The notes beneath the pieces are model-generated. The model saw only the letters and a program-made list of their open reading frames with translations, had not been told where the DNA came from and did no database searches. The position numbers were made by a program, and so were the translations under genes. Source: Atopobiaceae bacterium (lineage in GTDB: Bacteria; Actinomycetota; Coriobacteriia; Coriobacteriales; Atopobiaceae). From it: DNA of 64,000 nucleotides. Of the stretch, positions 46,324 to 63,962 are shown piece after piece. The stretch spans positions 1 through 64,000 of the forward strand of contig JAFWKQ010000074.1 in the NCBI GenBank assembly GCA_017545665.1, given 5' to 3'. Positions within the stretch are counted from its first letter, which is position 1. The number at the start of each line of letters is the position of its first letter.

Positions 46324-46800
46324 ATGCTGCGCATAGGGCACGGATACGACGTTCATCAGTTTGCCGAGGGACGTCGCTGTATTCTTGGTGGGGTTGACGT
46401 TCCCAGCGAGCGGGGATTGCTTGGCCATTCCGACGCAGACGTGCTTGCGCATGCGTTAGCCGATGCCGTGCTTGGGGCCGCGCGATTGGGTGACATTGGC
46501 AAGCTCTTCCCCGACACCGATCCGGCGTATAAGGGTGCTGACTCGTTGGTCTTGCTTTCGCATGTGGCGGCGCTCGTGCGCAAGAAGGGCTTCTCTATTT
46601 TGGACGTGGACTGCACGGTTGCTGCGCAAGTGCCCAAGCTGTCGCCGTATAGGGAGCAGATGAGAGAGAACCTTGCGGCGGCATTGGGTGTGGATGTGGG
46701 GCAAGTGGGCGTGAAGGCGACCACCACCGAGGGTCTGGGCTTTGTAGGCCGCAAGGAGGGCATAGCCGCTTGGTCCGTGGCGCTGCTGAGCAAGGGCTAG
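46324..46800 (+). CDS. ispF: 2-C-methyl-D-erythritol 2,4-cyclodiphosphate synthase
   Basis: 158 residues. [11 protein letters not shown] (metal Asp and His), [26 protein letters not shown] region with GHSDADV, FPDTDP and [19 protein letters not shown]. Start at 46324 after AAAAGGAGATAAG. Confidence 0.96.
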
Positions 46801-47079
46801 GCTCATTATGTTTTAACCCGCATAGCATGGATGCTGGGACAAGAGCCCACGGCACCTTATGAGCAAGGGACTGTGGCGGTCTCGCGCGTGCATGTCCGCG
46901 ACGGAAGTGCTGGGAAGCCTTCGTCCGCGCACTCAAACGCCTTAAATATTTGAGGTAAAGAATCTACCAGAGATCGTCTGTGGACGTTCGCAGACGGCTA
47001 CATTATTAGTAACGGATCCAAAGCGAGGCCAGTCTCAACGGCGGACGATGTGCTCGCAATCAAGTGTAAGGAGCAGTCC
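46801..47079. other. Boundary between core genes and the accessory island
   Basis: No gene, tRNA or clear att site is visible. Composition becomes more AT-rich from about 46940. Confidence 0.4.
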
Positions 47080-48618
47080 ATGAGCAAGAGCGAATCAAAC
47101 GGTAAGATGACGTGCACCGAAATGATTGAGTCCTGGTGTGCAAGAGCAGAGAGATCGGGATACAAAATCAACGCCGAGAAGCTCAATCGCATGCTACAGG
47201 GCGCCGGCCTCATCACGAAGGTCCGCTTGGGTGAAAACAGGGAATTGAAATGGGTTCCCACTAGGGCGGGAGAGCAGATTGGCATTGTGCTGGATAAGAA
47301 AAAAGGCAAATCGGGAAAGACGTACTACAGCATGTACTATACGCCGGAGGCTTCCGAAGCCATTCTAACGCGCTATCTGGCGCCTGACTATCCGCAAAGG
47401 CTTCCTGGCGTCACTCCTCTCTTTGTGCGCGATCGCAAAGCATCCGATTGGTTGGAGCTATTCCATCAGTATCTAAATGAGCGCGCCCAATTTCTTTGCG
47501 ATAGGTGGAACGCTGCCGACGATGCAGAGAAGCTCCATATAGTCGACGAGTATCGGAAGTCGCGCGTGCAGGAGACCGACGAGGCCGTGGACTCGGAGAT
47601 TTACGAGGACGAGCTCTCTGAAAGCTTCTATGTTGCCAGCTACTCCGAGTTCAACGCCTTCGAGTACAACACGCTCATGCAAGTTGTTCTGAACAACATG
47701 GCGCGGCGCCGGAACGGCGAGGTTGGCAATATTAGCATGGCGTCCATAGGCTGTGGATCCGAGATGGACCTTGCTGGCGCTCTGTATGCGGCTTGTTTCT
47801 ATGCAAGCGGGAAAACCAGACTCGAATACGTTCCCGTTGAGCTGGCGCGCTGGCCCCATCGCTTCTCGGAATGGCTCGCGCAGCATACGGACGAAGAATA
47901 TGTCGTTCCTAGCGTCGTGGGCTTGAATGGCGTAGTGCCACAAGGCATAAAGGACGGGAACGGTGCCTGTGACTTCTTTGACAAGGACAACCAAGCGAGT
48001 GTTTGCAAACACAACGTCATCCTGTTCCCCAAAATTATGAGCGAGCTGTCAGATAAGGTGAAGCAAGACCTCGTTGCGGGCATTCGAAACACGTCGTTTA
48101 CCGCTAACGAGGTGTTCGTGTGTGTCTCGCACCTTAACGAATGCTGCCTCGAGGAGCGGCGAAAGTCGGTTGCAACGGGCAACGCGGTATTGGATGCCTT
48201 TAGGGATGCAATGGAAGGCACGCACGACATGGTGCTCGGCGATTCGCTGAAGATGCCCTCATGGTTCAATAGGGGCGAATGGTGGCGGCTGTGGTGCAAT
48301 GTTAACAACGACGTTACCGACTACCCTTGGTTTTCGTTTGGGCCAACTGTGGCGAGCAGGGACAAAGGCTTCACGTACCTGCATATCTCAAAGGTGAGCC
48401 GGGAATTCTCGTGGCTCGATAAAGACGGCGATGGCAAATGCTTCCGGGATTTGGTAGACGAGATGAAAGACTATGTGAGCCAAGGCCATGGCAATTCCGC
48501 CCGAAAGACCGACGAGTTAAAGAACCCGCGGTTCAACTGCTTCGCCCTGCGTGACGATGGCACAAACATGAACGCAGGTCTTGCATTCCAAATCGTGAAG
48601 TTCGTCAAGAGGAAATAG
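47080..48618 (+). CDS. Methyltransferase-like protein with phage-antirepressor-like N-terminal domain
   Basis: 512 residues; AAGGAG lies eight bases before the ATG. Residues about 10-95 form a small domain with KLNRMLQGAGLI, KWVPTRAGEQIGIV, KTYYSMYYTPEASEAILTRYL; the same layout occurs at the N-terminus of the AAA-M41 protein at 50640. Near 219-232, ISMASIGCGSEMDLAGAL resembles SAM-binding motif I of class I methyltransferases, followed by a strand ending in VPVELARW. No catalytic motif IV (DPPY/NPPY) is obvious, so activity is uncertain. Family not recognised. It could be a sensor or modifier in a defence system. Confidence 0.55.
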   Translation: MSKSESNGKMTCTEMIESWCARAERSGYKINAEKLNRMLQGAGLITKVRLGENRELKWVPTRAGEQIGIVLDKKKGKSGKTYYSMYYTPEASEAILTRYLAPDYPQRLPGVTPLFVRDRKASDWLELFHQYLNERAQFLCDRWNAADDAEKLHIVDEYRKSRVQETDEAVDSEIYEDELSESFYVASYSEFNAFEYNTLMQVVLNNMARRRNGEVGNISMASIGCGSEMDLAGALYAACFYASGKTRLEYVPVELARWPHRFSEWLAQHTDEEYVVPSVVGLNGVVPQGIKDGNGACDFFDKDNQASVCKHNVILFPKIMSELSDKVKQDLVAGIRNTSFTANEVFVCVSHLNECCLEERRKSVATGNAVLDAFRDAMEGTHDMVLGDSLKMPSWFNRGEWWRLWCNVNNDVTDYPWFSFGPTVASRDKGFTYLHISKVSREFSWLDKDGDGKCFRDLVDEMKDYVSQGHGNSARKTDELKNPRFNCFALRDDGTNMNAGLAFQIVKFVKRK

Positions 48619-48698
48619 CGTGACAAACCGAATGCCAACCCAGGCTCGGAGACAGTTCCCGAGTTTGGCTGACGATTGCCCCACAAGAAGGAGGCCGT

Positions 48699-49667
48699 AT
48701 GATAATCAGCGTTTCTCGGCGCACCGATGTGCCGTGCTTCTTTTCGGATTGGTTCTACAATCGCGTGCAAGAGGGGTATGTGTGCGTGCGAAATCCAATG
48801 AGCGCGCATCAGGTGAGTCGTATTACGCTGACGCCCGATGTGGTGGATTGCTTTGTGTTTTGGAGCAAGAACCCTGGCCCCATGATTGACCGTCTTGGCG
48901 AGCTGGAGGGGTTTAACTACTACTTTCAGTTCACCCTTACGGGCTATGGCCACGATATTGAGGCGGGTGTACCGCATAAGCGCAACGTCATGATCCCCAC
49001 GTTTCAGCGGCTGGCCCAAATGGTTGGTCCAGAGCGCGTGGTGTGGCGCTATGACCCCATAGCGTTCTCGTCCAAGTACACGACCGACTACCACCTTCAT
49101 GCGTTCGAGTCCATCGCAACGGCCTTGAGGGGTTGCACGGAACGCTGCGTGATTAGCTTCGTGGATACCTACCAAAAGAACAAGGCACGCTTGCGCGAGG
49201 CGGGGCTTTCCGACCAAGGCGATTCCGGTCTCGAGTCGTTTGCGCGTGAGCTTGCCAACGTGGCCAAGCAAAACGGAATGAGCGTGGGTACCTGCGCCGA
49301 GAAGATCGACCTTGCGGCTGTGGGCATCGAGCACAACGCCTGTGTGAGTCGCGAGCTCATACAGCGCATTGCCCATGCTCAGATGAAGGTGGGCAAGGAC
49401 ACTGGGCAGCGCACCGAGTGCGGGTGCGTGCAAAGCATAGACATAGGCACCTATAACACCTGTCGTCTGGGATGCAAATATTGCTATGCCAACTTTAGCC
49501 CCCAGACGATCGCGCAAAACGTCTCTCGTTACGATGCGACGTCGCCGCTGTTGTGCGACGCATTGCGCGAGGACGATGTGGTAACGGAGCGTAAGATGCG
49601 CTCTCTGTTCGTACCGCAGCTAAGTCTATTTGGAGATGGGGACCGCAAATCGGTCGGACGCTCCTAG
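48699..49667 (+). CDS. DUF1848 family protein
   Basis: 322 residues; AAGAAGGAGG precedes the ATG. Family features are MIISVSRRTDVPCFFSDWFYNRV, FWSKNPGPMI, WRYDPIAFS and a Cys-rich C-terminus: TECGCVQSIDIGTYNTCRLGCKYCYAN with CxxGCxYCYA, suggesting an iron-sulfur cluster. The overall shape resembles radical-SAM-like barrels. Function unknown; often found alone in accessory regions. Confidence 0.88.
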   Translation: MIISVSRRTDVPCFFSDWFYNRVQEGYVCVRNPMSAHQVSRITLTPDVVDCFVFWSKNPGPMIDRLGELEGFNYYFQFTLTGYGHDIEAGVPHKRNVMIPTFQRLAQMVGPERVVWRYDPIAFSSKYTTDYHLHAFESIATALRGCTERCVISFVDTYQKNKARLREAGLSDQGDSGLESFARELANVAKQNGMSVGTCAEKIDLAAVGIEHNACVSRELIQRIAHAQMKVGKDTGQRTECGCVQSIDIGTYNTCRLGCKYCYANFSPQTIAQNVSRYDATSPLLCDALREDDVVTERKMRSLFVPQLSLFGDGDRKSVGRS

Positions 49668-49763
49668 CGCGAAGGGTTGGCACGAGACTGTCTTTCCAAA
49701 CTGCAGCAATCGAAAGAGCGGGAGCGGTGGCCGCAAGGATGCGGCGATAAGGAGGTTGCCCCT

Positions 49764-50510
49764 ATGATTTTCGTGACTGGCGACACCCACGGCAATAACG
49801 ATCTCTACAAGATTAGCCCAGACTTTTGGCCCGAGGGGCAGGATCTCATGCGTGACGATGCCCTTATTGTTTGCGGTGACTTTGGCGCACTGTGGTCAGG
49901 CGGTTCGCGCGACGAAGAGCTTCTGCGTTGGTACGAGCGCCAACCGTGGACAACGCTCTTCGTCGACGGAAACCACGAGAACTTCGACCTCATTAATGAG
50001 TTGCCCGTAGAGAGGCGCTTTGGTGGGCGCGTCCACACCATCCCTGGCTATCCGCACGTGATTCATCTGATGCGTGGCGAAGTCTATGACCTGCGGGTTT
50101 CCGATTCCAAGAGCGTACGTGCCTTTGTGATGGGCGGGGCCCCCTCAATAGATGCCGCATGGCGTGTGCCTGGCCTGTCTTGGTGGTTCGACGAGATGCC
50201 CGATTATACGGAATACGACAACGCTTGGCGAAACCTGGAGCGTGTGGGTTGGAGCGTCGACTACGTCTTCACGCACGAGTTACCCTTTGAGGGCGTACGG
50301 GATGCCTTGGAATGGGTCGATGGCTACGAAGAGCCTGAGCCTATCCAAAACGAGCTATCGGAATTCCTGCAGAGCGTTGACGATTGCCTTGACAAAAGAC
50401 GCCTGAAGATGTGGTATGCGGGACATTACCACATTGACGCTGAAATAATGGACGATCAGCATTGCGTGCTCTACGAGCAGGTCTTGGAGCTTGGGTCGAG
50501 CCCCCTTTAA
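49764..50510 (+). CDS. Calcineurin-like metallophosphoesterase
   Basis: 248 residues. GDTHGN at 6-11, VCGDFGALW near 38, a GNHEN at about 74-78 and GHYHID near the C-terminus are the metal-binding motifs. AAGGAGG precedes the ATG at 49764. Such enzymes cleave phosphodiesters or phosphomonoesters; the substrate may be a nucleotide or protein. In the same direction as the flanking island genes. Confidence 0.88.
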   Translation: MIFVTGDTHGNNDLYKISPDFWPEGQDLMRDDALIVCGDFGALWSGGSRDEELLRWYERQPWTTLFVDGNHENFDLINELPVERRFGGRVHTIPGYPHVIHLMRGEVYDLRVSDSKSVRAFVMGGAPSIDAAWRVPGLSWWFDEMPDYTEYDNAWRNLERVGWSVDYVFTHELPFEGVRDALEWVDGYEEPEPIQNELSEFLQSVDDCLDKRRLKMWYAGHYHIDAEIMDDQHCVLYEQVLELGSSPL

Positions 50511-50639
50511 GGAGTGTGAGCGGTAATAGCACGCCGCTTTGCTGTGACCTTTGGGGAAAGGGTGCCACCATTTTAGATACCCCATTGTTTATACTGCTGA
50601 AAACAGTGCAACAATACCAAGACGAGGAGAAATATACGA

Positions 50640-53600
50640 ATGGGTGCCTATGGAATCTCTCTTACGGGTGTCATCAACGAAGCGCGCGACGACGCAAACC
50701 TGAGCGTTGCGCAGCGCGAGGCCCTGCGCAAACTTCAGACGAGCGATGCGAATAAGATTCTGGCCGACGAGGGCTTGTTGGAGGGTAAGCCAAAATATTG
50801 GCATGTGAGCAAAACAGGCCATGACCTTGGCATACGAGAAGGGCAGAGGACGAATGACCGCGGAGAGAGCTACACGGCTATTCTCTACAGCGAGCATGCC
50901 AAGGAAGAGGTAGTGGCAATACTGCTAAAAAGGTTGCTGGGCAACCTGATTTCGGAAAGACAAGATGCGCCAGAAAGTGATGCACAGGTAACAACCCAAG
51001 ATTCAGACGAAGGCAATTTCTATTGGTCTGAGGATCAGGACCACGACGAGATATCGGTTTTTGCGATTGACGACGAGCTCAATGATTATCTGCATGGTCA
51101 AACCACGCCCGATGCCAATATCCAAAAAAACAGGCGTCCAAAAAGACGCGCTCGACTTAGCGATTGCGAACTTAGAAAGCATCGTCGAGACGTTAAGAAT
51201 TTCATTGGCGAATGGCGGTCGTTCCTGACCGGTTCACACGTGGCGCTCGAAAGATTGTTGAATGGGGATGCCGCATCCTGCTTCGCGTCTCTTGTGGTTG
51301 AGGACCAGGCACGATTGAATCAGTTTACGGGTGAGGTCTCTGAGCTGTTTGAGAAATCCGGACAAGGTCCCAGAGGCAAGGCGCTTGTTACCACGCTGTC
51401 GGAGCTTGCCGAGCGCTACGACATCCAGGATTGTCAGTTCGTGGTTGGGGACTATGAGGGAGTGGATCTTCCGGAGGGGCGCCTTTTGGTGCTTGACGGC
51501 CTGCGTGCATTCTTGGATCAATACGAAGAAGACAGGCCCGTACTCGGGATGGATGCAAACAACGCAGCGGTCGACCGGGCCATACGAGAAAAGGCCGTTA
51601 TCGACGCGCTCAAGCGAGAGTCCCTGGGGCGTTACGTGTTGCTGATCGGCACTGATTCCGATCTTCAGGATCTTTGTGCGCTTGATGCCGTGTTCGCACA
51701 GTCCTTTGGTTCCAACCGCATCCAATTGGAGGGTCTTGAGGTTCAGAGCATGGCAAGAATATACCTTCGGGAGCTTGATCCAGAGGTACGTGAACAGACC
51801 AAAGAGATCGAGGGATTCGGAGGCAAGCTTATGCGACACATTGCCTTCAACCAGCGTCTCCAGCCGTTACGCGGTGCTGCGTATGCCAAGCATTTGGCTA
51901 AATACTCAAATAGGGCGCGCAAGCCGATTCTGGAGTGCCCAGAGAATGGATACGACTACGACAGAATCCAATCGAGGCTCGATGCGGTCGTTGGGCTTGA
52001 GGCAGTAAAGCGGACCTTGCACGAGCTTGAGGGCCAAGCTCTGTTTAACATGCGGGCGGAGGCATATGGGCGCGAGGATGTTGCAAGCTGCAAGCACATG
52101 CTCTTTGTGGGGAATCCCGGCACGGGCAAAACTATGATGGCACGCATATTTGCCGACCTGCTTCCCGTTATGGGTGTTATAAAGCTGCCAGAGGGCAAAG
52201 ATGGCAAAGAGAGCAAAAAGGGTAAGTTCAAAGAAGTCACGGCAAGCGACATCTTTTCCATGTATGTAAGTCAAAGTGAGGTAAAGGCGAAGGAGATCAT
52301 TGAGGAGGCACGCGGTGGAGTGCTGTTCGTAGACGAGGCCTACTCAATGATGGGGCATGTGGGAGAAAAAAGCGATGCAACCAGTCAGGTAATTAGCGTA
52401 TTCGTGAAGGCGATGGACGACTACAAGGATGAACTTGTGATTATCTTTGCCGGTTACGAGAAAGAGATGGCACGCTTCATGGAGTCCAATCCAGGACTCA
52501 AGTCGCGGACGCCCTATACGTTCCGTTTTGAGGACTATAGCACCGAAGAGCTCATCGAGCTGTTCTCGCGGAATCTTAGGGATATGGGCTACGACTACGA
52601 AAGGGAATCCGTTGAAGTCAAGCTAAGGGACTTGTTCGAGCGCAATCGCAACTTTAGGGATTTCGGCAACGGTCGTTTTGTGAGGAACGTGGTCTCGGCG
52701 GCAAAGCGCCATCATGCCACTGCCACAAACGACGGCAAGGTGGAAGCCGGCAAGCTATTTGTGATATCGGGCGATGACATCCCAAGCCAAAACGAGCTTA
52801 TGGGTGTTAGCGACTGGTCGTTCAAAGGCGCTCGAGAGCTACTGAAACCACTCATTGGGATGGACCAGATAAAGGAAACGGTCCTTCGCTTCGAAAAGGA
52901 GGTGGCGTATCGGGAACAGATGCGCCTGCAGGGCTGCCCTCTTCCCCGAAAGAACATGCACATGCTTCTTACGGGAAATCCCGGAACGGGCAAGACGACG
53001 CTCGCCCGCATTCTGGGGAAGATCCTATACAACGTAGGCGTGCTTCCTACCAACAAGTTCCTTGAGGTCGAGGGACACGATCTTGCAAAGGTGGGATCGG
53101 GCAATCAGCTAGAGGCGACAAATTACCTTAAAGACGCCATGGGAGGCGTGCTGTTCATAGATGAGGCGTACGCAATCCTGAGCTCACCGGGGAGAGACAG
53201 CATCATTGCCACGCTGGTAAAGGCCATGGAAGACCATAAAGGCGACTTTGTGGTCATGTTTGCGGGATATAGAAAAGAAATGAAGGCCTTTACGGAGTGG
53301 AATCCCGGCTTGGAGTCACGCATTGGCTATAAGTTCGACTTCCAAGATTACGGAGAGGCCGAGCTCCAGGAGATATTCGAGCTCAAGATCAAAAGTGCCG
53401 GCCTTGAGATTACCGAAGCTGCTCAGGAAAAGAGTCGAAATGTGTTCCGGTTCTTCCAAGGCGTACGGGGCATCGGAAACGGTCGCTTTGCTGGGAAGCT
53501 TCTTGATGAGGCGATTTCGCTTCACGCCCAGAGCGCAAGCGTAGCCAATTTGAGGACGCTCGATGCGGACGACATCCCCTCAATAGAGCATATGGCAAGT

Positions 53601-54176
53601 ATTGTGGCGGTAAATGTTGCGTCGTGCTTTGGCAACGACAACAAAGCCGTACTACAACGACGCACCGTACATGAGCTCGGGCATGCCATATGCCTATTGG
53701 AGCTCAGGCGACTTACAAATATCAGGTGTATTACCATACGCGAAGAGGGCACAGGTGCAGCGGCCTATGTGGCATACACACCTAACTTCGAGATAAACAC
53801 TGCCAACGACATAGAAAGCGAAATAGTGGCAGCGCTGGGCGGCTTGGCGGCAGAGGAGGTTGTGCTCGGCGAATATGGTGTTGGGGGGACGAGCGATTTG
53901 GCCCGCGCTACAGAGACTGCTCGAGCATATGTTACGAAAACGGGGCTATCGAGCGCCGGTCTTCTTGTGTACGGTGACGTGGATGTTCACGAGCTGCCAG
54001 AATCGGTGCGTGAGACCATAAGCCAACTGTTGGACGACGCCTTTGCAAAGGCAAGGCGTATTATTGTTGCGCGGAGGAACGTTCTTATAGCCTTGTATGA
54101 GAAGCTGATGAAAGAGAGGACCATATCGGGCGAGTGCGTCATAGACGTGTGGAACCAAATTGTGAGTGGACAATAA
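50640..54176 (+). CDS. Giant AAA+ - AAA+ - M41 (FtsH-like) peptidase fusion
   Basis: 1178 residues; GAGGAG lies upstream. Residues 1-100 form a DNA-binding-like domain (ANKILADEGLL, YWHVSKTGHDLGI, SYTAILYSEHAKEEVVAILL) shared with the 47080 protein. An acidic linker and an unrecognised domain (about 180-430) follow. Two CbxX/CfxQ-EccA-type AAA+ modules have Walker A GNPGTGKT at 491-498 and 779-786, each with a Walker B (GVLFVDEAYSM; GVLFIDEAYAI). The C-terminus is an FtsH-like M41 zinc peptidase: HELGH at 1011-1015, LGGLAAEEVVLGE, then GGTSDLARAT with the third ligand Asp1086. FtsH normally has one AAA domain of another clade and membrane helices; none are seen here. It is probably a soluble ATP-driven protease. 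I know no named family with this architecture. Confidence 0.8.
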   Translation: MGAYGISLTGVINEARDDANLSVAQREALRKLQTSDANKILADEGLLEGKPKYWHVSKTGHDLGIREGQRTNDRGESYTAILYSEHAKEEVVAILLKRLLGNLISERQDAPESDAQVTTQDSDEGNFYWSEDQDHDEISVFAIDDELNDYLHGQTTPDANIQKNRRPKRRARLSDCELRKHRRDVKNFIGEWRSFLTGSHVALERLLNGDAASCFASLVVEDQARLNQFTGEVSELFEKSGQGPRGKALVTTLSELAERYDIQDCQFVVGDYEGVDLPEGRLLVLDGLRAFLDQYEEDRPVLGMDANNAAVDRAIREKAVIDALKRESLGRYVLLIGTDSDLQDLCALDAVFAQSFGSNRIQLEGLEVQSMARIYLRELDPEVREQTKEIEGFGGKLMRHIAFNQRLQPLRGAAYAKHLAKYSNRARKPILECPENGYDYDRIQSRLDAVVGLEAVKRTLHELEGQALFNMRAEAYGREDVASCKHMLFVGNPGTGKTMMARIFADLLPVMGVIKLPEGKDGKESKKGKFKEVTASDIFSMYVSQSEVKAKEIIEEARGGVLFVDEAYSMMGHVGEKSDATSQVISVFVKAMDDYKDELVIIFAGYEKEMARFMESNPGLKSRTPYTFRFEDYSTEELIELFSRNLRDMGYDYERESVEVKLRDLFERNRNFRDFGNGRFVRNVVSAAKRHHATATNDGKVEAGKLFVISGDDIPSQNELMGVSDWSFKGARELLKPLIGMDQIKETVLRFEKEVAYREQMRLQGCPLPRKNMHMLLTGNPGTGKTTLARILGKILYNVGVLPTNKFLEVEGHDLAKVGSGNQLEATNYLKDAMGGVLFIDEAYAILSSPGRDSIIATLVKAMEDHKGDFVVMFAGYRKEMKAFTEWNPGLESRIGYKFDFQDYGEAELQEIFELKIKSAGLEITEAAQEKSRNVFRFFQGVRGIGNGRFAGKLLDEAISLHAQSASVANLRTLDADDIPSIEHMASIVAVNVASCFGNDNKAVLQRRTVHELGHAICLLELRRLTNIRCITIREEGTGAAAYVAYTPNFEINTANDIESEIVAALGGLAAEEVVLGEYGVGGTSDLARATETARAYVTKTGLSSAGLLVYGDVDVHELPESVRETISQLLDDAFAKARRIIVARRNVLIALYEKLMKERTISGECVIDVWNQIVSGQ

Positions 54177-54178
54177 AG

Positions 54179-54216
54179 GCGCGGGGCGGGGCTGGAACGG
54201 CCCCGACGCCTCGCCT
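54179..54216. terminator. GC-rich hairpin between convergent island genes
   Basis: GGCGCGGGGCGGGGC and GCCCCGACGCCTCGCC pair around TGGAACG. No T-run. Confidence 0.6.
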
Positions 54217-54220
54217 CGCG

Positions 54221-55480
54221 CTATGCGAGGCCCTCGTAGGGGCCGCGCGCCCTGTCAAGATACGCAAGGTACTCCTCGACCGTCTTGGAATGGTCCCGGT
54301 TAAGACGCTCCATGAGCCTCTGCCAATCGTTGCCGATTTCAGCGCTGCCAAGAAGCGCTCGCAAGAGGTCTTGCCAAGGGCTGCTCAAGAGCACGGCGGG
54401 AAGGGGTGGCTCCACCATCACGACGCCGTCGCCCGCCGCCGTGAGCCAACGGTAGAACAACTCGAACGGCTTGTTGATGTGTACCATGGTAAGGGCGGTT
54501 GAGGCGGGGTTGCCCGTTTCGCCCTCGAACTGGTCGAACTGGAGGTCGAACCCAAAGCGATCGAACATGAAGTTCGACCTGTCCGAGCGTGCGCGCAAAA
54601 AGAGGTAGCGCCCCTTTTTTGTGCTCGCGCCTTCGTGTCTTAGGCGGGCTTCTGCGTCGGCTTTCGCCTTCTCGATTTCCTTGCCCCGCTCCACGGGCGT
54701 GTCCGAGACCCTTGTACCAACCATACGGTCGACGCGCAGGCGCTGGACCGTGGAGTGGCCCCTCCACTTCTTGGACGAGAAGGTATCGACGTAGTAGTTG
54801 CCCCCTATGTACGCGACCGCCAGTGGCGTTTCGTCGCGCCACGTGCTGCCGTCATCGTCCGAAAGGATGCAGCGTTCGTGCCCTCCTGCCATGGACCTGC
54901 CCTTGTCGCTCCTACGGGCGTTGCTCATGCTTACGTAGCTGTACTGGAAGCGGACCCTCCTTCCCTCCTTCATGGCGCGGAATATGGTCTGCACGGTCCT
55001 GAAGACCTTCTTGTCCTCCGGCTGCATGCGCTCGTCCACGAACACGGTGCCATCCAGGTCATCCTCTTGGTAGATGCTCACGAGGTCGAGCAGGCCACCC
55101 TGCAAACGCTTGCTTTGGTGCATGGTGAGCGTGTGCGACGAGCGGATGGCGTTGAGCAGCAAGTGAACATCGGCAGTCGTAAAGTCGCTGCGCTTGCACC
55201 AAAAGCCTCTGTTGCGGTCGGCCTTCTTTATCTGGATACCAGCGAAGCAGTTGTTTGTTAGCGCCCTCAGGTCACCGCCCACGGTGTTTTCGGCTGGTGT
55301 TTCGCCAAAGCGTTCCTCCAGTATGGCGCGTATGCTAGCGTTCGAGAGCGGGTGTCGCTCGTCGCTGAACCGCTTTAGTATCTCTACGATGCACAGCAGG
55401 CGCTCGCGCGGGTTGTCGCAGCTGAGTCCCTGCGGGAGGAGGCTGGCAAATTCCTCGACGTCGTACTGTGAAAGCGCCAT
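54221..55480 (-). CDS. WYL-domain transcriptional regulator
   Basis: 419 residues with the start at 55480, GAGGG six bases upstream; a longer frame lacks support. An N-terminal winged helix (LLCIVEILKRFSDERHPLSNASIRAILEE, with TVGGDLRALTNN) precedes a WYL domain (ETPLAVAYIGGNYYVDTF in the strand position of the WYL triad) and a C-terminal extension. WYL regulators sense ligands, often nucleic acids or nucleotides, and commonly control defence operons. It is divergent from the helicase gene and convergent with the AAA-M41 gene, so it may control either. Confidence 0.85.
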   Translation of the reverse strand: MALSQYDVEEFASLLPQGLSCDNPRERLLCIVEILKRFSDERHPLSNASIRAILEERFGETPAENTVGGDLRALTNNCFAGIQIKKADRNRGFWCKRSDFTTADVHLLLNAIRSSHTLTMHQSKRLQGGLLDLVSIYQEDDLDGTVFVDERMQPEDKKVFRTVQTIFRAMKEGRRVRFQYSYVSMSNARRSDKGRSMAGGHERCILSDDDGSTWRDETPLAVAYIGGNYYVDTFSSKKWRGHSTVQRLRVDRMVGTRVSDTPVERGKEIEKAKADAEARLRHEGASTKKGRYLFLRARSDRSNFMFDRFGFDLQFDQFEGETGNPASTALTMVHINKPFELFYRWLTAAGDGVVMVEPPLPAVLLSSPWQDLLRALLGSAEIGNDWQRLMERLNRDHSKTVEEYLAYLDRARGPYEGLA

Positions 55481-55687
55481 GGGTGTCCCTCGCAAACGGA
55501 AGTGGGCGGTGAGCACGAAGAACATACCATGGAAAGAGGCAAATTGTGTGCGCGCGTCGGTTTCCCCAACGATAAAACGCTGCGATTTCGCACGTTTGCC
55601 TAAACGAGTAGTTCGCTGGATGTGACTGATTGGATAATGGGTTGCGTATCGCCTGCGACAGATCTTAATGGGCAAGGGGAGTTTGTG
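55481..55687. promoter_or_regulatory. Divergent control region between WYL regulator and helicase
   Basis: About 200 bases must hold both promoters and probably the WYL operator. I do not see a clear inverted operator. GGGGAG at about 55677 is the helicase ribosome site. Confidence 0.4.
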
Positions 55688-58350: not shown

Positions 58351-58950
58351 CGAAGCTTGAGAACTGAATCGAGTCCGTTGGACCTCGGTGCATAAGGGGA
58401 TTGCAGCCCTTCCGAGGCGGGATGGATGGGACGGAAGTCCCGGTGGGGATACCCGCCGGGGCGAGCCGCGAGGCGGGCCCGCGAGGGCTGCCGACGAGGG
58501 AGAAAGGCCCAAGCCCAAGTCCTGGCGCGCGCGATGGCGCTCCGAACGTGCAGAACTCCTGGCACACCTCAATAGACGCCCCAGTGGGGAAGAACCTTGG
58601 GACTAGGCGGGTCGCGCCGCTCGACAGTAGGCAAGGAATGCCAAAGGTGTAGTTCGTCTTGAGGTCGGGAAACCGACTATAACAGGAGTCGCTGGCCAAA
58701 GTAGCCGTAGGGACGGTTTGACCTCGAGTATACAAAGTAAAGGGCGAAATCCATCTCTGAAGCTCGGTGAAATCTGGGGGTAACCATTCCCCCGCAGGGC
58801 CCCAAAGGGAGGTTTGGCAGCCTCCTCGGGCAAGAAGCCATGGGTCGCTCCCGGAAGCTCAGACTTGTCTGCCTGCTGACGGAACACGGGGAAGCCATTT
58901 GTAGCGTAGGGCGAAGGCTCACAACGGATTCGATTCAGTTCTCATGCTCG
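58351..58950 (+). ncRNA. Large structured non-coding RNA candidate, about 600 nt
   Basis: A 22-bp terminal helix joins 58359-58380 (GAGAACTGAATCGAGTCCGT and on) to 58922-58943, and can extend to about 30 bp with a bulge. Within it many local hairpins are visible: CCTCGG/CCGAGG at 58383/58412 with AAGGG/CCCTT inside, GGGACGGAAGTCCC at 58428-58441, GGTGGGGATACCCGCC at 58442-58457, and GTCGG-GAAA-CCGAC at 58664-58677. The region has no plausible protein frame. One terminal-helix pair and one in the 58442 hairpin are G-U on the plus strand but A-C on the minus strand, which argues for plus-strand transcription. Size and closed-end layout recall ROOL/OLE/GOLLD-class ornate RNAs; I cannot assign it to one. 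Confidence 0.72.
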
Positions 58951-59112
58951 CGCGCTTCCATCGCTTCGCTTCTGTGGCATTTGGAAACGCCGGCAACGTC
59001 GTTGCGAGTTGATGATTTGCTATGTGACATAGTAAGATGGTGTGAATATATTCGTGAAAATCTTCATTAATATATGTTAGCATGCTCCTATACCAACGTA
59101 TGGGGAGGTTAC

Positions 59113-59436
59113 ATGGCTTTGCCTGCAGAAGTGCTAGACAACATCGTTTCGGTTAGCGAATTCTCGCGTGGCGGTGCCTCGCGTGCGTTCGAGAAGGCCA
59201 AGGGCAGTACGCCGGTTATCGTGATGAAAAACAACAAGCCGACCGCCGTCATAACGTCGCCCGAGGAGTATGCGTACCTGAGCGAGATGGAGGAGGACTT
59301 TATCCTGCTGGGTCAGTCGATTGCGCGTCTCGCGCGCAACGACGTTAGGCCTACCGTCCCGTTTGACGAGGTTCTTGCGGAGTTTGGCATAACCGACTCC
59401 GAGCTCGACGAGGCTGAAGACGTGGGGATTGGCTAG
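59113..59436 (+). CDS. Phd/YefM-family antitoxin
   Basis: 107 residues. GGGGAGG precedes the ATG at 59113. The opening NIVSVSEFSRGGASRAFEKAKGSTPVIVMKNNKPTAVITSPEEY region contains the Phd/YefM dimer-DNA-binding pattern (VIVMKNNKPTAVI). The acidic C-terminus should bind the toxin. The toxin gene follows after two bases. Confidence 0.9.
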   Translation: MALPAEVLDNIVSVSEFSRGGASRAFEKAKGSTPVIVMKNNKPTAVITSPEEYAYLSEMEEDFILLGQSIARLARNDVRPTVPFDEVLAEFGITDSELDEAEDVGIG

Positions 59437-59438
59437 CC

Positions 59439-59768
59439 ATGGCATGGAGGGTCGAGTTCCTGGAAGAAGCGGTTGACGATCTTCGCAAGCTCGATGGGTC
59501 GGTGCGAACACATGTCCTAAAGGCAATTCGCAAGGTTTCGTCAAACCCTCTTCCACAAAGTGAGGGAGGTTACGGCAAGCCTCTTGGGAATCGCAACGCG
59601 ATTGATCTAGTCGATCTTTTCAAAGGTAAACTGCGTTCGGATGGCATACGCATTGTGTACCGTCTGCAACGTTCAAAGACGGAGATGCTCGTTGTGGTAG
59701 TTGGCGTTCGTACGGATGCGGAGGTGTACCGGGAGGCTGCTCGTCGTCGCAAGGCACGTGGGCTTTAA
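59439..59768 (+). CDS. RelE/ParE-family toxin
   Basis: 109 residues. WRVEFLEEAVDDLRKLDGSVR, then YGKPLGNRN, DLFKGKLRSDGIRIVYRL and a basic tail are the RelE layout. It would cleave mRNA at the ribosome or poison gyrase; which one is not clear from sequence. It forms an operon with the antitoxin at 59113. Confidence 0.9.
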   Translation: MAWRVEFLEEAVDDLRKLDGSVRTHVLKAIRKVSSNPLPQSEGGYGKPLGNRNAIDLVDLFKGKLRSDGIRIVYRLQRSKTEMLVVVVGVRTDAEVYREAARRRKARGL

Positions 59769-62380: not shown

Positions 62381-63182
62381 ATGAAGGATTACAGGGCCTA
62401 CCTAATGGGGAAGGGCTTCTCCACCCATACCGTCGATTCATACCTGTTCGCCATTCGCCAGATGAGAGGGGATTGGCGAGGAGCCTACGAGCGAAGACTT
62501 GCTCAACCACAAGGACTGGCTCGCCGCACACTTTGCCGCCAAGACTGTCAACCTGCGCGTCACAGCCATCAACTCGTACCTCGACTACATAGGTCATTCC
62601 GGCATCCGGCTGAAGGGCCTTCGCATACAGCAGAAACCTTACCTCGATAACGTAATCAGTCAGGCAGACTACGAATTGCTTCGTGACTCGTTATTGCGTG
62701 ATGGCGAGCTGTTCTGGCACTTCGTCGTGCGATTCCTCACCTGCACGGGAGCGCGCGTCAGCGAATTGCGTCAGTTCACGGTGGAATCGGTGCGAGATGG
62801 ACACCTCGACATCGTCTCCAAGGGCCATAAGCTCAGGCGTATCTACATTCCCACGAGCCTGCAATGCGACGCTGCTAGATGGCTGGATGAGATTGGCCGA
62901 AGGAACGGGTACGTCTTCTCCTCGAAGAGTGGCAAACCGATGACCGCCAGGGGCATATCAATGGGCCTGAAGCGCTTTGCCGAAAAGTACGGCATCGACC
63001 AGGATGTCGTCTACCCGCACTCGTTCCGGCACCGCTTCGCGAAGAACTTCATCGAGAGGAACCCGGACATCGCGTTTCTGGCCGACCTCATGGGCCACGA
63101 GAGCCTCGAGACCACGCGCGTCTACCTACGGCGCACCGCCTCGGAGCAGCGTGAGGCAGTCGACGCAACTATTGATTGGTGA
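62381..63182 (+). pseudogene. Tyrosine recombinase (XerC/D-like) with a one-base frameshift
   Basis: AAAGGAG precedes ATG 62381. The first frame gives an N-terminal core-binding start (MKDYRAYLMGKGFSTHTVDSYLFAIRQMRG, shown to name the part) and then breaks. The second frame continues from GIGEEPTSEDLLNHKDWL. Removing one G from the GGGG at 62468-62471 joins them perfectly (about 266 residues). Catalytic residues are all present: TGARVSELR, SKGHKLR, HSFRHRFA, GHESLETTRVY. Its position between two opposed hsdS segments marks it as the specificity invertase. Its function is currently off, or phase-variable, unless the frameshift is bypassed. Confidence 0.85.
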
Positions 63183-63903
63183 GTTCTTGGAAGGCGTTGT
63201 ATGCCTCTTTGATGCGTGCTTGCTCAGAAATCGGCGGGACAGGGATGAGCACGTCGACAATCTTTGAGACCGCGAGTCCGGGCTGTGCCGTTGCGGTTGC
63301 ATACTGATTGAGGTTGAGGGCTTCAAGCACGAGACAGGCCCAGCCCACGTCAGTCTTATCGAAGCATGTTGTAACAATCGCATGCTCAGTTGCATAAAAC
63401 CCGCCTTCGGCATAATTGACGCATCCACAGAGTGCACCCTGACGGCCCACGATTGGGAAGCGCCCGTTCCTGTTGGACTCTTTCACATATCCGCGGATGC
63501 CGTTGCCGCCGAAACAGGGATACGGATGGTCTCCATCTTGCGTATCACTGATTCTCGCGGCGGCAATGTTTTTGCCAGCTTGCATGCTAAATAGGGTACC
63601 TATCCTCGACCACGCCCAGCTCTCCGGGATCTCGAACGGGATCTCGTCGTCGATGCACACGGGCTCGCCCTCGCGCCCCCGCGCGTCCACGCGCTTCTCA
63701 TAGTGGCCGCCATCGGAAGCGCGGAAGATTACGGACTCGCCGCCCCTGGGGGCCTTGATCTTCTTTTCCTTTATGAGCTTTGCGCGCTCCTTGCGAATGC
63801 GCTCCACAAGCACGGACGCGGGCTCGTCGGCAGGGTCCTGCGGCACGAGCTTTCCCTGCACGGCCATCTGCAGGATTGAGTTACGCAGGTCCTTAGCCTT
63901 CAT
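63169..63903 (-). CDS. hsdS: Type I restriction-modification specificity subunit HsdS (expressed copy, single TRD)
   Basis: 244 residues with the start at 63903 after AAGGAG. The conserved opening KAKDLRNSILQMAVQGKLVPQDPADEPASVLVERIRKERAKLI has the recognisable MAVQGKLVPQDP. One target-recognition domain follows the FEIPESW segment and the protein ends PPISEQARIKEAYNAFQELTNQ region (AFQELTNQ then stop), about half the usual HsdS. Either a half-subunit that dimerises or a gene cut by inversion. Upstream gene end at 63963 is probably hsdM or hsdR. Confidence 0.88.
   Translation of the reverse strand: MKAKDLRNSILQMAVQGKLVPQDPADEPASVLVERIRKERAKLIKEKKIKAPRGGESVIFRASDGGHYEKRVDARGREGEPVCIDDEIPFEIPESWAWSRIGTLFSMQAGKNIAAARISDTQDGDHPYPCFGGNGIRGYVKESNRNGRFPIVGRQGALCGCVNYAEGGFYATEHAIVTTCFDKTDVGWACLVLEALNLNQYATATAQPGLAVSKIVDVLIPVPPISEQARIKEAYNAFQELTNQ
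63610..63728 (-). repeat. Right arm of the 119-bp hsdS inverted repeat
   Basis: Partner of 60349-60467, within the expressed hsdS. The interval between the arms, about 3.1 kb, carries the silent cassette, DUF3800-like gene, antitoxin and recombinase. Confidence 0.9.
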
Positions 63904-63962
63904 CTCATGCTCCTTGCCCATCGGAATTACGCACGCACTGCGTACGCAATTCGACCGCTATA

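Follow-up and report, generated by a model that had tools for sequence, protein, structure and literature searches.

A putative soluble ATP-dependent zinc protease with SpoVK/CbbX/EccA-type AAA modules, encoded in a mobile gene cassette of a gut Atopobiaceae bacterium

The stretch of DNA analysed here, called the window, comprises the first 64,000 nucleotides of contig JAFWKQ010000074.1 from a gut Atopobiaceae bacterium (GCA_017545665.1). It encodes a protein of 1178 amino acids, whose gene starts with the ATG at 50640, is preceded by a GAGGAG Shine-Dalgarno sequence at 50624-50629 and has its stop ending at 54176. The features of this gene and of its surroundings are listed in Table 1.

Table 1. 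Features of the protease gene and its surroundings; positions refer to the window.
Feature	Position	Strand	Basis
Accessory cassette, 7.4 kb	46796..54232	.	absent from closest relative G001
522-aa protein without known domain; homologous to the protease at its N-terminus	47050..48618	+	local alignment
DUF1848 protein, candidate link to protease only	48699..49667	+	Pfam; same cassette
Metallophosphoesterase, likely start 49764, candidate link to protease only	49764..50510	+	Pfam; same cassette
Soluble AAA0-AAA1-AAA2-M41 protease (predicted), 1178 aa	50640..54176	+	ORF, Pfam/NCBIfam matches, alignments, structure model
~75-aa N-terminal module (residues ~21-98)	50700..50933	+	predicted secondary structure, local alignment
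AAA0, degenerate CbbX-fold AAA module, P-loop lost (residues 176-433)	51165..51938	+	hhalign, model, structure comparison
AAA1 (residues 441-715)	51960..52784	+	Pfam, NCBIfam, CbbX Z 24.8
AAA2 (residues 731-980)	52830..53579	+	Pfam, PDB matches, structure comparison
M41 peptidase domain (residues 1001-1170)	53640..54149	+	Pfam, FtsH alignment, structure comparison
HELGH zinc-binding/catalytic motif (1011-1015)	53670..53684	+	alignment to FtsH zinc ligands
Asp1086, predicted third zinc ligand	53895..53897	+	alignment
WYL-domain protein adjoining the cassette	54221..55675	-	Pfam; present in G001 too

Pfam assigns to this protein two AAA domains (1.8e-32), two AAA_lid_6 domains and a Peptidase_M41 domain at residues 1010-1167 (5.1e-20). 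The nearest NCBIfam models for the AAA parts are those of SpoVK, EccA and CbbX, and the FtsH model matches best on the peptidase part (1009-1165). Among the solved structures of the PDB, the matches of AAA2 are limited to CbbX and EccA1 and those of the C-terminus to FtsH-family proteases. AAA1 contains Walker A at residues 491-498, Walker B at 562-566, a Y542-V-S pore loop, a sensor-1 AGY at 604-606 and the sensor-2 arginine R679 (GNGRF); in AAA2 we found Walker A at 779-786, Walker B at 838-842, AGY at 875-877 and R949 (GNGRF). Sensor-1 GY and a second (sensor-2) arginine are listed as marks of the SpoVK/CbbX/EccA clade (PMC10659427). The pore-loop aromatic is absent from AAA2 in the window protease and in most Coriobacteriia copies, so this module may not grip the substrate, which counts against the protease reading given below. 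Asp1086 of the peptidase domain lines up with the Asp in the GAANDIERAT motif of FtsH. The aligned homologues retain Asp1086, HExxH and the two Walker A/B pairs, apart from one Clostridial AAA1 with N for D in Walker B. No membrane helix was detected in the protease, whose highest 19-residue hydropathy is 1.38 as opposed to 2.24 and 2.64 for the two FtsH proteins of the host genome.

An AlphaFold2 model of the protease was built from 14 homologues and has a mean pLDDT of 73.7. CbbX is the closest structure to AAA1 (Z 24.8, 5.1 A, 281 residues), the match of AAA2-M41 to FtsH spans the two domains (Z 22.6, 7.0 A, 386 residues), and M41 by itself aligns with AFG3L2 (Z 19.6, 2.6 A, 173 residues); Foldseek agrees with these matches. 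The predicted structure of the C-terminal domain shows a peptidase fold.

The original prediction, made from the letters of the DNA alone, had described two CbxX/EccA-type ATPase modules fused to an FtsH-like M41 domain in a soluble protein, with an AAA clade other than that of FtsH. The open reading frame, its motifs, the fusion and the lack of a membrane helix are all borne out, and the difference in clade is confirmed by the NCBIfam models and by the AAA tree described below. The two modules also stand, but a third and degenerate one, AAA0, had been overlooked. Pairwise comparison by hhalign aligns AAA0 with AAA1 nearly end to end over 185 columns (E 8e-6). AAA0 is modelled with a pLDDT of 87.9, and structure comparison puts CbbX first (Z 13.2, 4.5 A over 230 residues), the next protein reaching Z 9.9. 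Clostridial versions of AAA0 retain a partial P-loop, GSKDTGKRK.

Most Coriobacteriia relatives of the protease have a Cys-rich element in the N-terminus. The window copy is devoid of it and carries the ~75-aa module in its place. This module recurs in the N-terminus of the 522-aa cassette protein and at the C-terminal end of a helicase encoded in the same island and on the same contig (C23, gene 85403-88441, module 88202-88438). The two local alignments score 66 and 63, whereas shuffled sequences average ~26, and none of 2000 shuffles scored as high. In the whole host genome there are just these three strong matches and one weak match to the module. Its predicted secondary structure is helix-helix-helix-strand-strand-helix, and although the model is of low confidence in this region, the module would fit a winged helix. 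Pfam gave no match up to E 0.5, KilA and winged-helix families included, and an identity of this kind by Pfam was dropped. The DNA-binding-like N-terminus of the original prediction is thus a guess, and the linkage to a sensor that it proposed is not established.

The protease gene lies in a 7.4-kb segment for which the closest relative, G001, has only 75 bp, the flanks matching at 88% and 84%. The genes for the protease, the 522-aa protein, the DUF1848 protein and the metallophosphoesterase differ from G001 as one block. This difference could result from gain in the host or from loss in G001; gain is favoured, because the protease is rare in the genus and occurs in only one of 16 genomes, that of the host. 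Direct repeats of 10 bases or more were not found at the cassette ends. The protease is part of the accessory, mobile content of the host genome. The WYL gene had been considered as part of the protease unit, which is weakened by the fact that G001 carries it without the protease; we therefore regard the WYL protein as a neighbour.

In relatives ispF lies next to cysS or not far from it; in the host the two are 42 kb apart. The island between them includes an integrase, type I restriction genes, a toxin-antitoxin pair and a T4SS coupling protein. Of the defence-like island that had been predicted, the variable island stands and the defence role is not established. Several other loci of this region may be mentioned. 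A Phd/YefM antitoxin and a ParE-like toxin are encoded at window positions 59074-59768, and a full-length ROOL RNA (RF03087, 238 bits) lies at 58360-58939 (+), where the same place matches G001. A type I restriction specificity subunit is found beside a tyrosine integrase at 62499-63921 and on along the contig to ~66 kb, which is perhaps a shuffling hsdS locus. Beyond the window, on the same contig (69393-74213, L041), the mobile-looking island encodes an RNA polymerase beta'-like protein of 1606 aa in which the NADFDGD motif is intact, followed at 74161-75357 by an open reading frame with a sigma-70 region 2 match; the two could possibly represent element-encoded transcription machinery.

Scanning contigs with the window protein alone gave no matches, whereas the family alignment as query found relatives. 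The protease is a member of a scattered family that has no name so far. Full-length relatives are sparse in Coriobacteriia, with eight carriers among the 140 genomes of the host family, the window's own included, and in Clostridia they are present in 12 of the 31 genomes of one order. The fusion recurs in both groups. Pfam, NCBIfam, PADLOC and PHROGs yielded no homologue that belongs to a system with a name. The unfamiliar architecture proposed originally is supported. A sequencing or assembly accident that joined two genes is ruled out by the same fusion in many genomes of two phyla. One split copy (G066) contains frameshifts and is probably due to error or decay rather than representing a two-gene form. 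The order of modules, N-terminus - AAA0 - AAA - M41, is constant in the family, in which one (L121-L125), two (the window protease and most others) or three (L126) AAA modules are active. Neither HExxH nor the third zinc ligand varies across the two phyla.

In a tree of AAA domains, 36 peptidase-linked domains of common descent form one clade (97/91), and FtsH lies far outside. The clade adjoins SpoVK-like proteins without peptidase. While NPGxRSR, with an Arg at position +4 after the conserved Asn, is the signature of CbbX, of EccA and of most relatives that have no peptidase, the peptidase-linked AAA modules have N[PSA]GxxSR, and the +4 Arg is absent from every one of them that we have seen. 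It is a mark of the SpoVK/CbbX/EccA clade that an Asn precedes the first arginine finger by four residues. In the window protease the Asn residues are present (Asn617 and Asn888), position +4 is occupied by K621 and E892, and the Arg is kept at +6 only. Because of this, control of the ATPase may differ, which counts against the protease reading. The +4 Arg is also missing from L128 (6476-10486), a peptidase-free protein of Clostridia in which four AAA modules are of the SpoVK type. The AAA branches of the window protease are long (1.37 and 1.05).

The flanks of the relatives reveal a partner gene. A YbjN-like gene (PF10722) was present no farther than ~0.43 kb from the protease gene at every one of the ten other Coriobacteriia loci whose flanks could be read, and at an eleventh, frameshifted locus it follows directly downstream, so that all eleven loci with usable flanks have it next to the protease gene or less than 0.5 kb away. 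Of the eight protease genomes seven contain strong YbjN matches (E below 1e-20), as opposed to zero of the 132 other genomes of the host family; a naive count gives a chance of 4e-11 for this, related genomes not being independent. A YbjN HMM gave no match anywhere in the window or further along the contig as far as ~96 kb, and the sole YbjN found in the host genome is encoded on another contig and is 23% identical. The window copy is therefore atypical, being fast-evolving, without a YbjN gene nearby and with a replaced N-terminus, and on account of its long branch and the missing YbjN it may have changed function. Near three Coriobacteriia proteases we also noticed a protein of ~750-970 aa without known domain (L063, 4583-7162; L066, 2433-5348; L068, 5785-8046), and an N-terminal stretch of the L063 copy is strongly hydrophobic.

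The family combines traits of several known systems. With FtsH and the m-AAA and i-AAA proteases it shares the M41 fold, HExxH, the third Asp ligand and an AAA part upstream in one chain; it differs in that its AAA modules belong to another clade, two of them being active in the window protease (the family has one to three) and a further one dead, in the absence of membrane helices and in the N-terminus. With SpoVK, CbbX and EccA it has in common the AAA sequence, the CbbX fold, sensor-1 GY and the sensor-2 Arg, but the window protease carries a peptidase, has tandem modules and, behind an Asn that is present, has the +4 Arg replaced. It would work in the manner of ClpAP and ClpCP, in which two stacked ATPase rings feed a peptidase chamber and small adaptor proteins are used, although here the peptidase is part of the same chain, is a zinc M41 domain rather than ClpP, and the AAA modules are of another family. 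YbjN and the TY-chaperones come in through the PF10722 gene of the relatives, which is not near the window copy. In the open literature searched, no link of YbjN with M41 or with the SpoVK/CbbX/EccA clade was found.

In their survey, Delerue et al. 2023 reported no peptidase fusions or interactions for the SpoVK/CbbX/EccA clade, unlike other classical AAA+ proteins (PMC10659427), and this absence is their description of the clade, not its definition. As the AAA-M41 fusion is conserved in two phyla, the family is a counterexample to this description. We found no account of an M41 fusion in this clade in the open literature that was searched. Two rules are broken together, as the clade has been described as one of dedicated chaperones unconnected with peptidases, and FtsH is where M41 is known from. 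Natural versions with one, two and three rings make it testable how many rings an unfoldase needs and whether a SpoVK/CbbX motor threads, and the poorly understood YbjN fold gains a testable partner.

We consider it likely that the window protein is a soluble ATP-dependent zinc protease with stacked rings and an exchangeable intake. AAA1 and AAA2 would form stacked hexameric rings, which would unfold the substrate and thread it into a hexameric M41 chamber, in the manner of the FtsH AAA ring. The intake side would consist of the inactive AAA0 together with the N-terminus, which is exchangeable. YbjN and T3SS/TY-chaperones are peptide-binding chaperones (PMC9503650), and delivery of substrate by YbjN is the natural reading of this; in most Coriobacteriia relatives the Cys-rich N-terminus and the YbjN-fold protein, probably a dedicated substrate-delivery chaperone, would select or deliver the substrates, and in the window copy the island-shared ~75-aa module may take their place. 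Selective, soluble ATP-dependent proteolysis is the most likely predicted function. Against it speaks that the SpoVK/CbbX/EccA proteins studied are described as remodelling chaperones and not as unfoldases of proteases (PMC10659427).

Several biological roles would be compatible with such a protease. It could be an anti-phage or anti-plasmid effector, in which an invader is detected through the N-terminal module or the 522-aa cassette protein, whereupon the protease cuts a phage protein or an essential protein of the host. AAA+/peptidase pairs do occur in defence, for example IetAS, which resembles the present case as an AAA+ protein plus a peptidase on variable islands. The location in the 42 kb island with its integrase, restriction, toxin-antitoxin and T4SS genes, the patchy spread in genus and family and immune-like neighbours in Coriobacteriia (TIR-like, L068 and L072; DUF4062-NUDIX, L063; RyR, L062; WYL, L065 and L071) fit this role. 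However, none of these neighbours is constant across loci, islands contain much non-defence cargo, and the PADLOC match to IetA is weak (E 2.4e-10) and limited to the generic ATPase part, without an S8 peptidase; beyond that part PADLOC gave no match of the window protease to known anti-phage systems. The Clostridial members, moreover, are found in conserved ordinary gene contexts, so the family is not restricted to defence. The effector role put forward originally is therefore not established; phage defence is possible for the window protease, and we hold the effector role as a whole to be rather doubtful. We would give slightly less weight to the wider proposal that the proteins form a new class of soluble, YbjN-served, adaptor-dependent AAA+ metalloproteases, with the SpoVK/CbbX motor joined to M41, which Coriobacteriia would employ as mobile immune or conflict effectors retargeted by swaps of the N-terminus.

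The conserved positions in Clostridia, where 12 of 31 genomes of one order have the protease, and the intact M41 and AAA sites would agree with general housekeeping or stress quality control in the manner of a soluble FtsH or Lon. The sparse occurrence in Coriobacteriia, the mobile cassette, the exchangeable N-terminus and the dedicated chaperone argue instead for narrow substrates, and Delerue et al. describe the AAA clade as narrow-target (PMC10659427), so that we judge this role to be about as doubtful as that of an effector. Somewhat less likely still is that the peptidase serves the mobile element, for instance by turnover of an element regulator bearing the ~75-aa module. The occurrence of this module in protease, cassette protein and island helicase would agree with such a role, but the proteases of the relatives do not possess it, and it is poorly modelled and its function a guess. 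Only one alternative contradicts the protease reading itself, namely a pure remodelling chaperone whose M41 domain is kept for assembly alone. Plant FtsHi pseudo-proteases are cases in which M41 domains persist without activity (PMC8197885), and the AAA clade is otherwise chaperone-like (PMC10659427). Since HExxH and the third ligand do not vary between the phyla, we think this very improbable.

Concerning mobile carriers of the protease, phage and plasmid collections yielded no full-length relative, and the matches were confined to the ATPase part with one exception. This phage match (H21) ran past the ATPase part and turned out to be a 936-aa AAA protein without HExxH in its sequence. Viral contigs were likewise dismissed as carriers of this family, as they encode other AAA-M41 proteins only. 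These are open frames of 686 and 747 aa (L077, 5049-7106; L078, 8420-10660) with other AAA parts, and they represent further non-standard carriers of M41.
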